43,287 nucleotides of DNA, from IMG/VR virus record IMGVR_UViG_3300036979_000130, positions 1-43,287 of that record; one strand, written 5' to 3'. Below the pieces are notes generated by a model. It did not search any database. It was not told where the DNA came from and was given only the letters and a program-made list of their open reading frames with translations. Positions 6,419 to 40,320 of the stretch are shown piece by piece (the stretch's first letter is position 1; each line of letters opens with the position of its first letter). The stretch is from a virus. Both the position numbers and the translations under genes were made by a program.

Positions 6419-6427
6419 AGTGTTCTC

Positions 6428-6445
6428 CTAAGAGGTGGACATAAT
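6428..6445 (-). promoter_or_regulatory. Candidate phage RNA polymerase promoter, variant copy
   Basis: On the minus strand the sequence reads ATTATGTCCACCTCTTA then GGAG, with +1 predicted at 6428. It shares the TGTCCACCTC core with three other intergenic copies and differs at positions -16 to -14 and at -3. It sits exactly between the RNA polymerase stop and the exonuclease ATG. The AGGAG doubles as the exonuclease ribosome binding site. Confidence 0.7.
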
Positions 6446-10428: not shown

Positions 10429-10431
10429 CTC

Positions 10432-10449
10432 CTATGAGGTGGACATTAA
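10432..10449 (-). promoter_or_regulatory. Candidate phage RNA polymerase promoter (middle genes)
   Basis: The minus strand reads TTAATGTCCACCTCATA followed by GG, with +1 at 10432. The 17-nt length before the GG start matches T7, T3 and SP6 promoters, as does the TTAA at the distal end and ATA before +1. The element is identical to the copy at 40.26 kb over all 17 positions. It would drive the small genes and RNA polymerase region. Confidence 0.8.
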
Positions 10450-16380: not shown

Positions 16381-16457
16381 TATACCTTAGGGCGTTCTTA
16401 ACCCCCCTACCCCCCGACCCTATAACCTGACGGCGGGAGAGCAAGCCACTGCTTCTC

Positions 16458-16475
16458 CTATGAGGTGGACTTTAA
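16458..16475 (-). promoter_or_regulatory. Candidate phage RNA polymerase promoter (genome end)
   Basis: The minus strand reads TTAAAGTCCACCTCATA then GG, +1 at 16458, differing from the 10.43 and 40.26 kb copies at one of 17 positions. It shares about 30 further upstream bases with the 40.26 kb copy (AAACGCTTTGTTTT on the plus strand). It points from the terminase end into the early region, like the left-end replication promoters of T7. Confidence 0.8.
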
Positions 16476-34885: not shown

Positions 34886-35923
34886 TTAGGTACCAGCGAT
34901 TTCAAAGGCGCAGTATGGACGCAGCGAACCGCCACCCATCAGCATCTTCGAGACCATGAAGTCCGACTGACGGCGAACGTCGCGGAACTTTTCGGTCTGG
35001 ATACCCATGAGGGAGAGCGCTGCAATTGCTTGCTTCTGGAAGATGACTCCACCAGTTTTGGCAAAGTTGCCCTGATATTTAGCGGGGCCAGTCGTGATGT
35101 TGCTGTTAGGGATGTGGTTCGACATGTAAACTGGAACGCCCAGAACATCGATAGCCATACCGTAACCTTGACCGTCTTGAATCTTTGGACCAGCAGCGCC
35201 AGTGTCGTTACGACCCCAGAGTGCTTGTTTATCAAGATTCACCACGCTACCGCTGTAATACGGAAGACCCAACTTACGAAGGGCATAGTACAACGGGACA
35301 TTCACAACACAAACACGGTCGTTCGTTGGGACATCTTTCTCGTCCATTGCCTGACACACAGCGCCGATTGCTTCGACAAGCTGAGCGCCGTTCTGTTCAA
35401 TACCCCAAGCGGTTTCGTCAAAGTCAACGTTAACGTTAACAGAACTATATGTATTACCACCGACAGGGAACGAGTTCGTACCCGTGTCAGTGCTAGTGCG
35501 CGCGGCAAGGATGAGAAGGGCCGCAAGTTTGCGATCCATCTGACGTGCCAATTCGCGACCGCACTCAGATGCGAGTTCGTTACGGGTATCGAAGTGGCTC
35601 ATAGCCACATCAATGTCATCCACTTCAAAGTGGGAGACCAGAGGACGATCATCAAGAGAGATCGAGTATTCCTTCGTTTCAACATCGAGACCAAGGAGTT
35701 CGGTACCAGCTTCGTGGTATTCCGAACCGATCTTCCATGTCGCTGGGAACTTCATCGTGTTACCAGAGGTCAGGGTCTTGTGATTAACGAGGCTGGTGAA
35801 TTGGTTGTACTCCTGAAAGGCGGTGAGGACTTCACCACCATAGACTGGCAACCAAAGGTCGGACGGGGTTGGGGTTCCGTTTGCGGCGTTAGAGCCAAAG
35901 CGGATAAGATTCGTAGTAGCCAT
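34886..35923 (-). CDS. Major capsid protein (T7 gp10-like)
   Basis: Protein of 345 aa, the length of T7 gp10A. It has the expected HK97-like layout: an N-terminal arm, the LVNHKTLTSGNTMKFPATWKIG segment, SISLDDRPLVSHFEVDDID, the long spine helix RNELASECGRELARQMDRKLAALL, and the C-terminal VVFQ-like strands. It begins after a 180-base leader with several RNA hairpins. The ribosome binding site is weak (GAGAAA), odd for the most abundant protein and a hint that the leader structure matters. No frameshift extension is evident. Confidence 0.95.
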   Translation of the reverse strand: MATTNLIRFGSNAANGTPTPSDLWLPVYGGEVLTAFQEYNQFTSLVNHKTLTSGNTMKFPATWKIGSEYHEAGTELLGLDVETKEYSISLDDRPLVSHFEVDDIDVAMSHFDTRNELASECGRELARQMDRKLAALLILAARTSTDTGTNSFPVGGNTYSSVNVNVDFDETAWGIEQNGAQLVEAIGAVCQAMDEKDVPTNDRVCVVNVPLYYALRKLGLPYYSGSVVNLDKQALWGRNDTGAAGPKIQDGQGYGMAIDVLGVPVYMSNHIPNSNITTGPAKYQGNFAKTGGVIFQKQAIAALSLMGIQTEKFRDVRRQSDFMVSKMLMGGGSLRPYCAFEIAGT

Positions 35924-36019
35924 TGCTTGTGTTTCTCAAATACATTGTTGCGTGATCCCTCATTGGATTGTCGTCTATCAGTTGGCCTCCAACATGGAGG
36001 GTTGAGACGGTCACAAGTG

Positions 36020-36104
36020 TGGAAAGCCCTAGCAGGAATCGATACCTGCGTTCCGCCAGAGGCGGGTAATAGACCTATACGATAGGGCAGGAGACCGAAG
36101 TCTC
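36020..36104 (-). ncRNA. UUCG hairpin plus degenerate tRNA-like fold ahead of the capsid gene
   Basis: Two adjoining RNA elements on the minus strand. First, GAGAC-TTCG-GTCTC (36104-36091), a UUCG-capped hairpin touching the previous stop codon. Second, 36089-36020, about 70 nt in tRNA order: acceptor TGCCCTA/TAGGGCT with one mismatched end pair; D arm GTA-TAGGTCTAT-TAC; anticodon stem CCGCC/GGCGG closed by only TCT; AAC; T arm GCAGG-TATCGATT-CCTGC with an 8-nt loop; then TTCCA. It resembles tRNA-Glu outside the anticodon loop. With a 3-nt anticodon loop it cannot decode. It could be a processing signal for RNase P or Z, a stabiliser, or a decayed tRNA. Confidence 0.65.
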
Positions 36105-36626
36105 TTAGGTGGCTGGAGGTTGTGGCGGCGTAGTTGGCGAGGCCAGCTTAGCCGCTAATGCAATACCAGCATTATAGGATGATTGTTTCTCTTTCGAGAC
36201 ACGGTTGTCTTCACCAGGTCGCTTCAGGAACAAACCTGTAACGAGGGAAAGACCACTGAGCAGGATGGCACCACCAGGAAGGCCGCCAAGGCCAGTCTGC
36301 GCGGCACCAAGACCAAGATCAGTCAGTTGCTGAAGAACGATGTAGCGGTCTTCAGACTCCTTGATGGCTGCGGTAAAGCGAGCCGTGTTGCTTTGGACAT
36401 AAAGGTTCCAGTCTTCCCAGATCTGGTCAACCTCTGCAAGCGAGATAGGCTTGTTGAGATCATCCACATCGAGGGACGCACGGATATCGCGCGGAACGTC
36501 AACCTTCACAAGAGAGCGCAGCTCACACCCCTGCAAGCCAATCAAGGCTGCAAAGGCAATAAGCAGGACGCAGAACCAAGTAACAGCCGCTGGATTATCG
36601 TTAAACCAATCGCGAAGTTTAGACAT
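36105..36626 (-). CDS. Two-span membrane protein with lipobox, between scaffold and capsid genes
   Basis: Protein of 173 aa, ATG 36626 overlapping the scaffold stop by 8 bases. The N-terminus (MSKLRDWFNDNPAAVTWF) leads into a hydrophobic helix ending GLQGC, a lipobox-like site, so it may be a lipoprotein. A central charged helical region (DQIWEDWNLYVQSNTARF) follows, then a second hydrophobic stretch (LPGGAILLSGLSLVTGLFL) and a Pro/Thr tail. I recognise no family. T7 has no gene here. Candidate roles are a lysis component, an exclusion lipoprotein or a minor virion membrane protein. Confidence 0.65.
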   Translation of the reverse strand: MSKLRDWFNDNPAAVTWFCVLLIAFAALIGLQGCELRSLVKVDVPRDIRASLDVDDLNKPISLAEVDQIWEDWNLYVQSNTARFTAAIKESEDRYIVLQQLTDLGLGAAQTGLGGLPGGAILLSGLSLVTGLFLKRPGEDNRVSKEKQSSYNAGIALAAKLASPTTPPQPPAT

Positions 36627-37389
36627 CTCGTACGTTTCCTGAAAGGCGAACCCGTTGCTGAACGAGGTTCTGGTAATCCGAATCAAACTTATAGCGGGGA
36701 TCTCGCATGGCCATCGTCATCTCGGATGATGTAGCAAACGGCTTCAACGTCGGCGGGATACCCTGCACGGTGTTCACTTTACTCTTAGGCTCGTTACCCA
36801 TTACTGAGGCTCGAGCTTTCAAACCAAGCAAGACATTCTGCCAACCAGGAGAACGAAGACCGTCATTGACAGCCTCGCGTTCAACGTCGGGAAGGTTCTC
36901 CTGCGCCCACTTGATGATACCCGTCAACTGCTCAGTACCGCCAACCACCTGAGCGGCAGCGGCTGCATGTTGCTGTTGCTGAGCCTTGACACCACTGATG
37001 TAACCATTGATCATGGAGTCAGGGACGTTCATCGTCTTTTGGATGTTCGCCCGTGTTTCCACGCTGAGGTCGCCCGTGGAGACCAGTTCGTGTCCCACCT
37101 TGTCCCAATCGAATTGAGGCGAGGTAGGTGGAACTGGCTTGTCTGGTACAGTGAGACTGGGAGGGAGTTGCGCCTTCTCTGGGACTGGCTCTTCAGCCGA
37201 AGGAGGCGACTTGAGTGTCGCGTTCTCCTGCTGAGTTCGAGTGAGAGTCGCCCGCATCTCTTTGTAAGACGCGATGAACTTCTCTGGGTCTCCACCGAAC
37301 TGTGGCGGTAGATTAGCGGCGTTCGACTTAGCCCACTTCTCTGCCGACACCAACTCAGGATCGTTTGGTTCTTGTTCTGATTCGCTCAT
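36619..37389 (-). CDS. Scaffolding protein (T7 gp9-like)
   Basis: Protein of 256 aa, acidic N-terminus (MSESEQEPNDPEL), Pro/Glu-rich centre and helical second half. The C-terminal ATSSEMTMAMRDPRYKFDSDYQNLVQQRVRL is the capsid-binding end conserved in T7-type scaffolds. It lies directly after the portal (TAA then ATG) and before the capsid, as in T7. Confidence 0.9.
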   Translation of the reverse strand: MSESEQEPNDPELVSAEKWAKSNAANLPPQFGGDPEKFIASYKEMRATLTRTQQENATLKSPPSAEEPVPEKAQLPPSLTVPDKPVPPTSPQFDWDKVGHELVSTGDLSVETRANIQKTMNVPDSMINGYISGVKAQQQQHAAAAAQVVGGTEQLTGIIKWAQENLPDVEREAVNDGLRSPGWQNVLLGLKARASVMGNEPKSKVNTVQGIPPTLKPFATSSEMTMAMRDPRYKFDSDYQNLVQQRVRLSGNVRDV

Positions 37390-40136: not shown

Positions 40137-40320
40137 ACTGTGAATACCTTGTAGTTGTCTAGCGGTAGGTGTACACCCTATATAGATAGTCCGATCATAC
40201 GGTCGTATGATACTGTCCCTATACTATATACTGAACGGGGGGGGGGGGCTTCCCCTTCTCCTATGAGGTGGACATTAATCTAAACGCTTTGTTTTGCTGG
40301 GTTTACGCATGGGGTGTTTA
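40137..40320. other. Late promoter leader region
   Basis: In transcription order: a shared AAACGCTTTGTTTT-type upstream block, the phage promoter, a run of twelve G (40237-40248 on the plus strand), an AT-rich CTATA stretch, the hairpin ATCATAC-GGTC-GTATGAT (40194-40211) and another CTATATAG. No gene is seen. The G run is a likely site of assembly length error. Confidence 0.75.
40261..40278 (-). promoter_or_regulatory. Candidate phage RNA polymerase promoter (late genes)
   Basis: The minus strand reads TTAATGTCCACCTCATA then GGAG, +1 at 40261. It is identical over 17 bases to the 10.43 kb copy. It lies 125 bases ahead of the first late gene and should drive the whole structural operon. Confidence 0.82.

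Follow-up and report, generated by a model that had tools for sequence, protein, structure and literature searches.

The window, the whole stretch of 43,287 nucleotides that was analysed (IMG/VR record IMGVR_UViG_3300036979_000130), is a T7-like phage genome with direct terminal repeats of 127 bp. Its T7-type RNA polymerase, portal, scaffold (PF05396) and gp10A-like capsid were identified by profile search. Read towards the capsid gene, the scaffold gene is followed by an ORF with a lipobox, whose stop codon adjoins a UUCG hairpin, and then by a tRNA-shaped structure (here called the element) and a second structure in the capsid leader (Table 1). PHROG and Pfam searches of the lipobox ORF gave no matches. 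BLASTN of the head region against cultured phages also gave none, and bacterial genome contigs searched with the capsid returned no relatives.

Table 1. Features around the capsid leader, in positions of the window.
Feature	Position	Strand	Detail or basis
Candidate promoter-like repeat AATGTCCACCTCATAGGAG	40258..40276; other copies 6425-6443, 10429-10447, 16455-16473	-	4 copies
Capsid assembly (scaffold) protein gene	36619..37389	-	PF05396, PHROG 1052
ORF with lipobox, upstream of the element	36105..36686 (ATG probably 36626)	-	ORF list
UUCG hairpin GAGAC-UUCG-GUCUC	36091..36104	-	between stop codon and element; covariation in relatives
Predicted RNase P cleavage point	between 36089 and 36088	-	predicted from tRNA geometry only
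tRNA-like structure	36020..36088	-	direct reading, fold, covariation (13 sequences), match to model built without the window
Acceptor stem, 6 bp	36083-36088 with 36026-36031	-	direct reading and fold
U8 analogue	36082	-	direct reading and fold
D stem, 3 bp	36078-36080 with 36066-36068	-	loop UAGGUCUAU, contains GG
Anticodon stem, 5 bp	36061-36065 with 36053-36057	-	closed by 3-nt loop UCU
T stem, 5 bp	36045-36049 with 36032-36036	-	8-nt loop UAUCGAUU
Tail UUUCCA	36020-36025	-	direct reading
Predicted 3' processing zone (RNase Z or RNase E type), capsid mRNA 5' end	36020..36025	-	predicted from tRNA geometry only
Second conserved leader structure	35957..36015	-	single copy in each genome examined, immediately 5' of the capsid gene
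Major capsid protein gene, T7 gp10A-like	34886..35923	-	PHROG 267, Pfam PF21703

An earlier note on this sequence had described a cloverleaf at this place, with acceptor, D, anticodon and T arms, flanked by a UUCG hairpin touching the preceding stop codon and by a CCTCC..GGAGG hairpin downstream. All of its stems are perfect and stand in tRNA order, and both flanking hairpins are present. The terminal CCA that the note reported is a feature of the window and is not shared by its relatives, which end in UUUCCRA, UUUCACCA or UGUUCCGA, with the CC off the tRNA spacing. The stability of the fold is by itself moderately unusual (z = -2.5, with 3 of 200 shuffles equally stable). A cloverleaf of this shape appeared in 1 of 1500 dinucleotide shuffles of the leader, and the same loose cloverleaf rules picked out five sites genome-wide when both strands were searched.

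Standard tools do not call a tRNA here. ARAGORN found no tRNAs in the window or in 33 relatives, Rfam gave no tRNA matches in the window at the gathering threshold or at E<=10, and a genome search with the tRNA model (RF00005) left the element below threshold and reported no tRNAs in the window. The element of one relative, L001, scored 39.8 bits against the Rfam tRNA model (threshold 29) in a narrow search, with the anticodon loop deleted in the alignment. Rfam at the gathering threshold on whole loci had missed this same element, so search filters matter. The identification of the element as a tRNA was rejected on the basis of its anticodon loop of 3-5 nt and the window's score below the tRNA model threshold. 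An intrinsic terminator was rejected as well, since no GC hairpin followed by a U run was called at the element. A plant-virus 3' tRNA-like structure was rejected because the element is internal, between genes of a DNA phage with terminal repeats.

An IMG/VR search with the capsid gave 34 loci, and the 270 nt before each capsid gene were read. Most relatives at 63-84% capsid identity share a common layout: stop codon, short hairpin, cloverleaf, second structure, short upstream ORF and capsid ATG. Thirteen distinct elements were aligned (alignment A1) and tested against the cloverleaf. Standard pairs account for 98.0% of the pairs, 13 of the 19 pairs have changes on both sides, and the covariation score is 0.587 compared with 0.179 in shuffles, a value which none of 500 shuffles reached. 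As a control the pairing partner was slid by one to three columns, and pairing fell to 34-50%. RNAalifold predicted the same four helices from the alignment and omitted only the innermost anticodon pair. All four helices are thus supported by covariation in these 13 sequences. The compensatory variants among relatives are GUA/UAC, AUC/GAU and AAC/GUU in the D stem, CCGCC/GGCGG, CUCGC/GCGAG and GCCGU/ACGGC in the anticodon stem, and GCAGG/CCUGC and GUGGG/CCCAC in the T stem. The suggestion of the earlier note that folding is kept holds within the clade, where structure and compensatory changes are found in all four arms, and the tRNA-like structure is conserved beyond reasonable doubt.

What the note had named as the dull alternative, a decaying tRNA gene, would account for the absence of a working anticodon and for the L001 element still scoring as a tRNA. 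Decay would break pairs, however, and the 13 distinct sequences have compensatory changes in all arms, and no member has an anticodon loop of 7 nt. A tRNA pseudogene whose pairing is lost by drift is refuted for the clade by the share of pairs kept with covariation, and we regard decay as very improbable.

Both tRNA and custom covariance models were run. The custom model (R1) found the element in 19 of 29 capsid-relative viral records, once per genome and always before the capsid gene, and its sole match elsewhere in these records is a genuine tRNA-Arg. A leave-out model, from which the window, L020 and the L024/L025/L028 group were withheld, scored the element in the window at 50.3 bits (E 4e-10), and the second-best place in the window at 13.5 bits. 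Deeper capsid searches added no carriers, and T-arm patterns returned known carriers only. Relatives at 61-65% capsid identity mostly lack the element and have another structured leader instead, so the element is not essential to this type of phage. The element-less loci L021-L023, L026, L027, L029-L033 and L092 share a different conserved pattern before the capsid gene, approximately YCGCUAC, a hairpin, UUUCUUUCUCUUC and another hairpin.

Twelve distinct elements were laid out arm by arm. Analogues of U8 and A14 and four perfect stems are found in all twelve, and so is an anticodon loop of 3, 4 or 5 nt. The earlier note had called decoding impossible for the window; the same applies to every relative examined, and given the known decoding geometry no member could act as a tRNA on the ribosome. 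The T arm is the part of a tRNA read by RNase P and RNase Z, and its letters GG-U-(R)-UCGA..CC are near-invariant among the aligned elements. The acceptor has 6 pairs, and its seventh position is U-U or C-U in most elements and A-U in three. Stacked on the T stem it gives 11 pairs in all 12 elements, and 12 in the three with the terminal A-U, in agreement with the RNase P requirement of about 12. The RCCA directly 3' of the acceptor, which is a feature for RNase P, is absent: the window has UUUCCA, relatives have UUUCCRA and other endings, and the distance of the CC from the acceptor is too great for an ordinary RCCA. Most D loops lack G18G19, and 11 of the 12 elements have a T loop of 8-9 nt rather than 7 nt, which means that the tertiary fold must differ from that of a tRNA.

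Seven tRNAs were compared with the elements. E. coli tRNA-Gly(UCC), whose annotation was confirmed, aligns best to the L001 and window elements, mainly through the D arm AUCGUAUAAYGG..AUUACC. BLASTN of the L001 element against phages gave partial matches only, of at most about 55 nt and several of them in tRNA genes, and gave none against E. coli. The D arm and the core letters point to descent of the element from a tRNA. The ancestor was possibly a tRNA-Gly, for which the sequence likeness is a hint and not a proof.

A tRNA proof against nucleases would need its anticodon loop removed, and this is so in every member. The released RNA might then act in trans as a tRNA mimic, such as a decoy for tRNA enzymes or for those host nucleases which attack anticodon loops. 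We consider this improbable, because the element is always linked to the capsid leader, has no tRNA 3' end, and is replaced by a plain hairpin in one relative, L009.

The 5' hairpin is also conserved. All five of its pairs have changes on both sides among relatives, its loop there is usually UUCG, and the upstream stop codon lies inside the loop in L003 and L004. After cleavage this hairpin would presumably cap the upstream mRNA at its 3' end. The second structure, in relatives, consists of a stem with two asymmetric internal loops and has the form GA-C-[helix]-AYAA-UC; in the window it has an apical hairpin CCUCC..GGAGG. It has no matches in Rfam. A DNA pattern for it returned true members together with chance hits in unrelated DNA, and the matches of its covariance model rest mostly on sequence because the model kept only 4 pairs. 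A related hairpin and GGACAAYC can be read before the capsid gene of distant Autographiviridae (HTVC019P, BB8 and RHEph21).

A two-codon upstream ORF, ATG NNN TAG and most commonly ATG AAC TAG, stands before the capsid ATG in L001, L004, L006, L009, L010 and L013-L019. It reads ATG TTC TAA in L011 and ATG TAG in L003. The conserved two-codon ORF ends about 20 nt before the capsid start. Its counterpart in the window is longer and seems to extend over the capsid start.

The place before the capsid gene is filled by true tRNA genes in other phages. The cultured Rhizobium phages RHEph01 and RHEph21 and several IMG/VR relatives have tRNA-Asn or tRNA-Cys there, L155 and L157 have tRNA-Phe, and Pseudomonas phage LUZ100 has tRNA-Asn. 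In the Rhizobium phages and LUZ100 a hairpin stands directly 5' of this tRNA too. L009, which is nested among carriers and is the sister of one (support 100/97), has a plain GAAA-capped hairpin in place of the element. Relatives at a greater distance carry either some other structured leader or a simple hairpin. On the capsid tree the distribution of the element needs two changes. The slot is thus stable and its occupant varies: a tRNA, a trimmed tRNA mimic, a hairpin or none. What the tRNA and the mimic have in common is a substrate shape for RNase P and 3' tRNA nucleases. RHEph21 also has an unannotated tRNA shape directly 3' of its tRNA-Asn (L055:2245-2314; 39.1 bits with the tRNA model; 5-nt anticodon loop), a single case that may be decaying.

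Transcript ends have been mapped in LUZ100 by long-read RNA sequencing. The available text of that paper (PMC10134795) discusses a tRNA-Leu at the integrase and not the pre-capsid tRNA-Asn. Placed with the paper's -60/+40 convention, which was verified on the five intrinsic terminators reported there, the RNA 3' end T14 maps 2 nt before the 5' end of the tRNA-Asn. T14 was not taken to prove cleavage by RNase P, since a GC hairpin ends immediately before it and the end could come from termination at this hairpin.

The LUZ100 ends mapped around the pre-capsid tRNA would also suit a site at which the phage RNA polymerase is attenuated or partly terminated and the scaffold/capsid ratio thereby set, and so would the strong stems of the element, which are followed by UUU. 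No terminator-like site was called at the element, however, and a terminator would have no need of four arms folded as a cloverleaf in which U8, A14 and the T-loop letters are conserved. We find an attenuator improbable.

The promoter-like repeat AATGTCCACCTCATAGGAG has four copies in the window compared with 0.01 expected by chance. The copies are likely to be phage RNA polymerase promoters or start-region signals. A similar repeat is found in the related genome G001. In both the window and G001 about 4.1-4.3 kb separate the element from the last such repeat on the upstream side of the capsid gene, and in the window there is none between this copy and the capsid gene. The scaffold and capsid would thus share one transcript.

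Within such a transcript the element probably has a processing role. We put the probability at roughly 60% that it is a tRNA-like processing element, or "t-element", of a late polycistronic mRNA, and we infer the cleavages, the enzymes and the effect on expression as follows. A tRNA ancestor would have had its anticodon arm trimmed, and with it the ability to decode, while the acceptor/T-arm stack and the U8-A14 core would have been retained for tRNA-maturation enzymes. Host RNase P would cut on the 5' side of the element, and the portal-scaffold-lipobox mRNA would then end in the UUCG hairpin, which would resist exonucleases. A 3' tRNA nuclease of the RNase Z or RNase E type would cut past the element and place the 5' end of the capsid mRNA beside the second leader structure. 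The abundant capsid message would thereby become independent of the scaffold message, with no promoter-like repeat between them. Two observations support the RNase P and RNase Z mechanism: real tRNA genes fill the slot in distant relatives, and no promoter-like repeat separates scaffold and capsid. In the Rhizobium phages and LUZ100 the maturation of the slot tRNAs would have to cut the capsid leader.

The element could instead be left uncut, and an intact folded leader could shield the capsid mRNA or recruit a tRNA-binding factor (the ribosome, EF-Tu or a modifying enzyme) and so raise capsid translation. The imperfect RNase P determinants would be explained in this way, as would its position in the capsid leader, where its neighbours are a second conserved structure and a short upstream ORF that is likewise conserved. 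We hold this to be possible but doubtful: about 97 nt separate the 3' end of the element from the capsid start, the genuine tRNAs that relatives have in the slot would be excised and not retained, and the 5' hairpin is best understood as a 3' end cap.

Returning to the t-element reading, a broader form of it is that T7-like phages build late mRNAs by tRNA punctuation, in which a pre-capsid non-decoding mimic, or a real tRNA in other genera, would be excised by host tRNA-maturation enzymes. We see the chances of this broader claim as evenly balanced. In mitochondria, tRNAs between the genes of a polycistronic transcript set the mRNA ends. Those tRNAs are functional, whereas the element cannot decode; the real slot tRNAs of the Rhizobium phages and LUZ100 are closer to that system. 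The late polycistronic mRNA of T7 is cut between genes by host RNase III at long hairpins, whereas the element is a cloverleaf and tRNA enzymes are proposed for it. It also differs from the tRNA-like structure of MALAT1/mascRNA, which belongs to a eukaryotic long noncoding RNA, in being part of a viral mRNA.

Plant mitochondrial t-elements are tRNA-like and uncharged, and their cleavage by RNase P and RNase Z sets the 5' and 3' ends of mRNAs (PMC11658184; PMC8003010). The element resembles them in being tRNA-shaped and non-decoding. Its conserved cloverleaf lies between two genes, and it would share with them the cleavage and the place beside an mRNA end. It differs from them in belonging to a DNA phage of bacteria, in its conserved anticodon loop of 3-5 nt, and in its fixed place before one gene. 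RNase P also acts on phage RNAs, namely T4 gene 32 mRNA, M3 RNA and C4 RNA (PMC11143913), but a conserved full intergenic cloverleaf is not described among these substrates. The open-access papers searched contained none that deals with phage tRNA punctuation or with the processing of pre-capsid tRNAs, and nothing that resembles the element in a phage mRNA; such an absence is weak evidence.

If the t-element reading is true, the trimmed anticodon loop would make the element a pure cleavage signal, hidden from the ribosome and from host anticodon nucleases, and there would be a t-element system in the bacterial world. A conserved anticodon-less element in the mRNA of a bacterial virus would extend tRNA punctuation from mitochondria to phages. 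This suggests one reason why phages have tRNAs, namely as cutting signals rather than decoders. The covariance model is available for cases that tRNA finders overlook.

The pre-capsid slot has further occupants. TRX32-1 and Lo5R7ANS have inverted ORFs in it, and accessory genes may use it as an insertion site. Just upstream of the tRNA-Phe of L155 and L157, the Rfam abiF RNA matches exactly at its gathering score (L155:132-191 and L157:2035-2094). The IMG/VR contig of L001 has a genuine tRNA-Arg(TCT) near its end (L062:127-201, minus strand), and the same phage carries the element.
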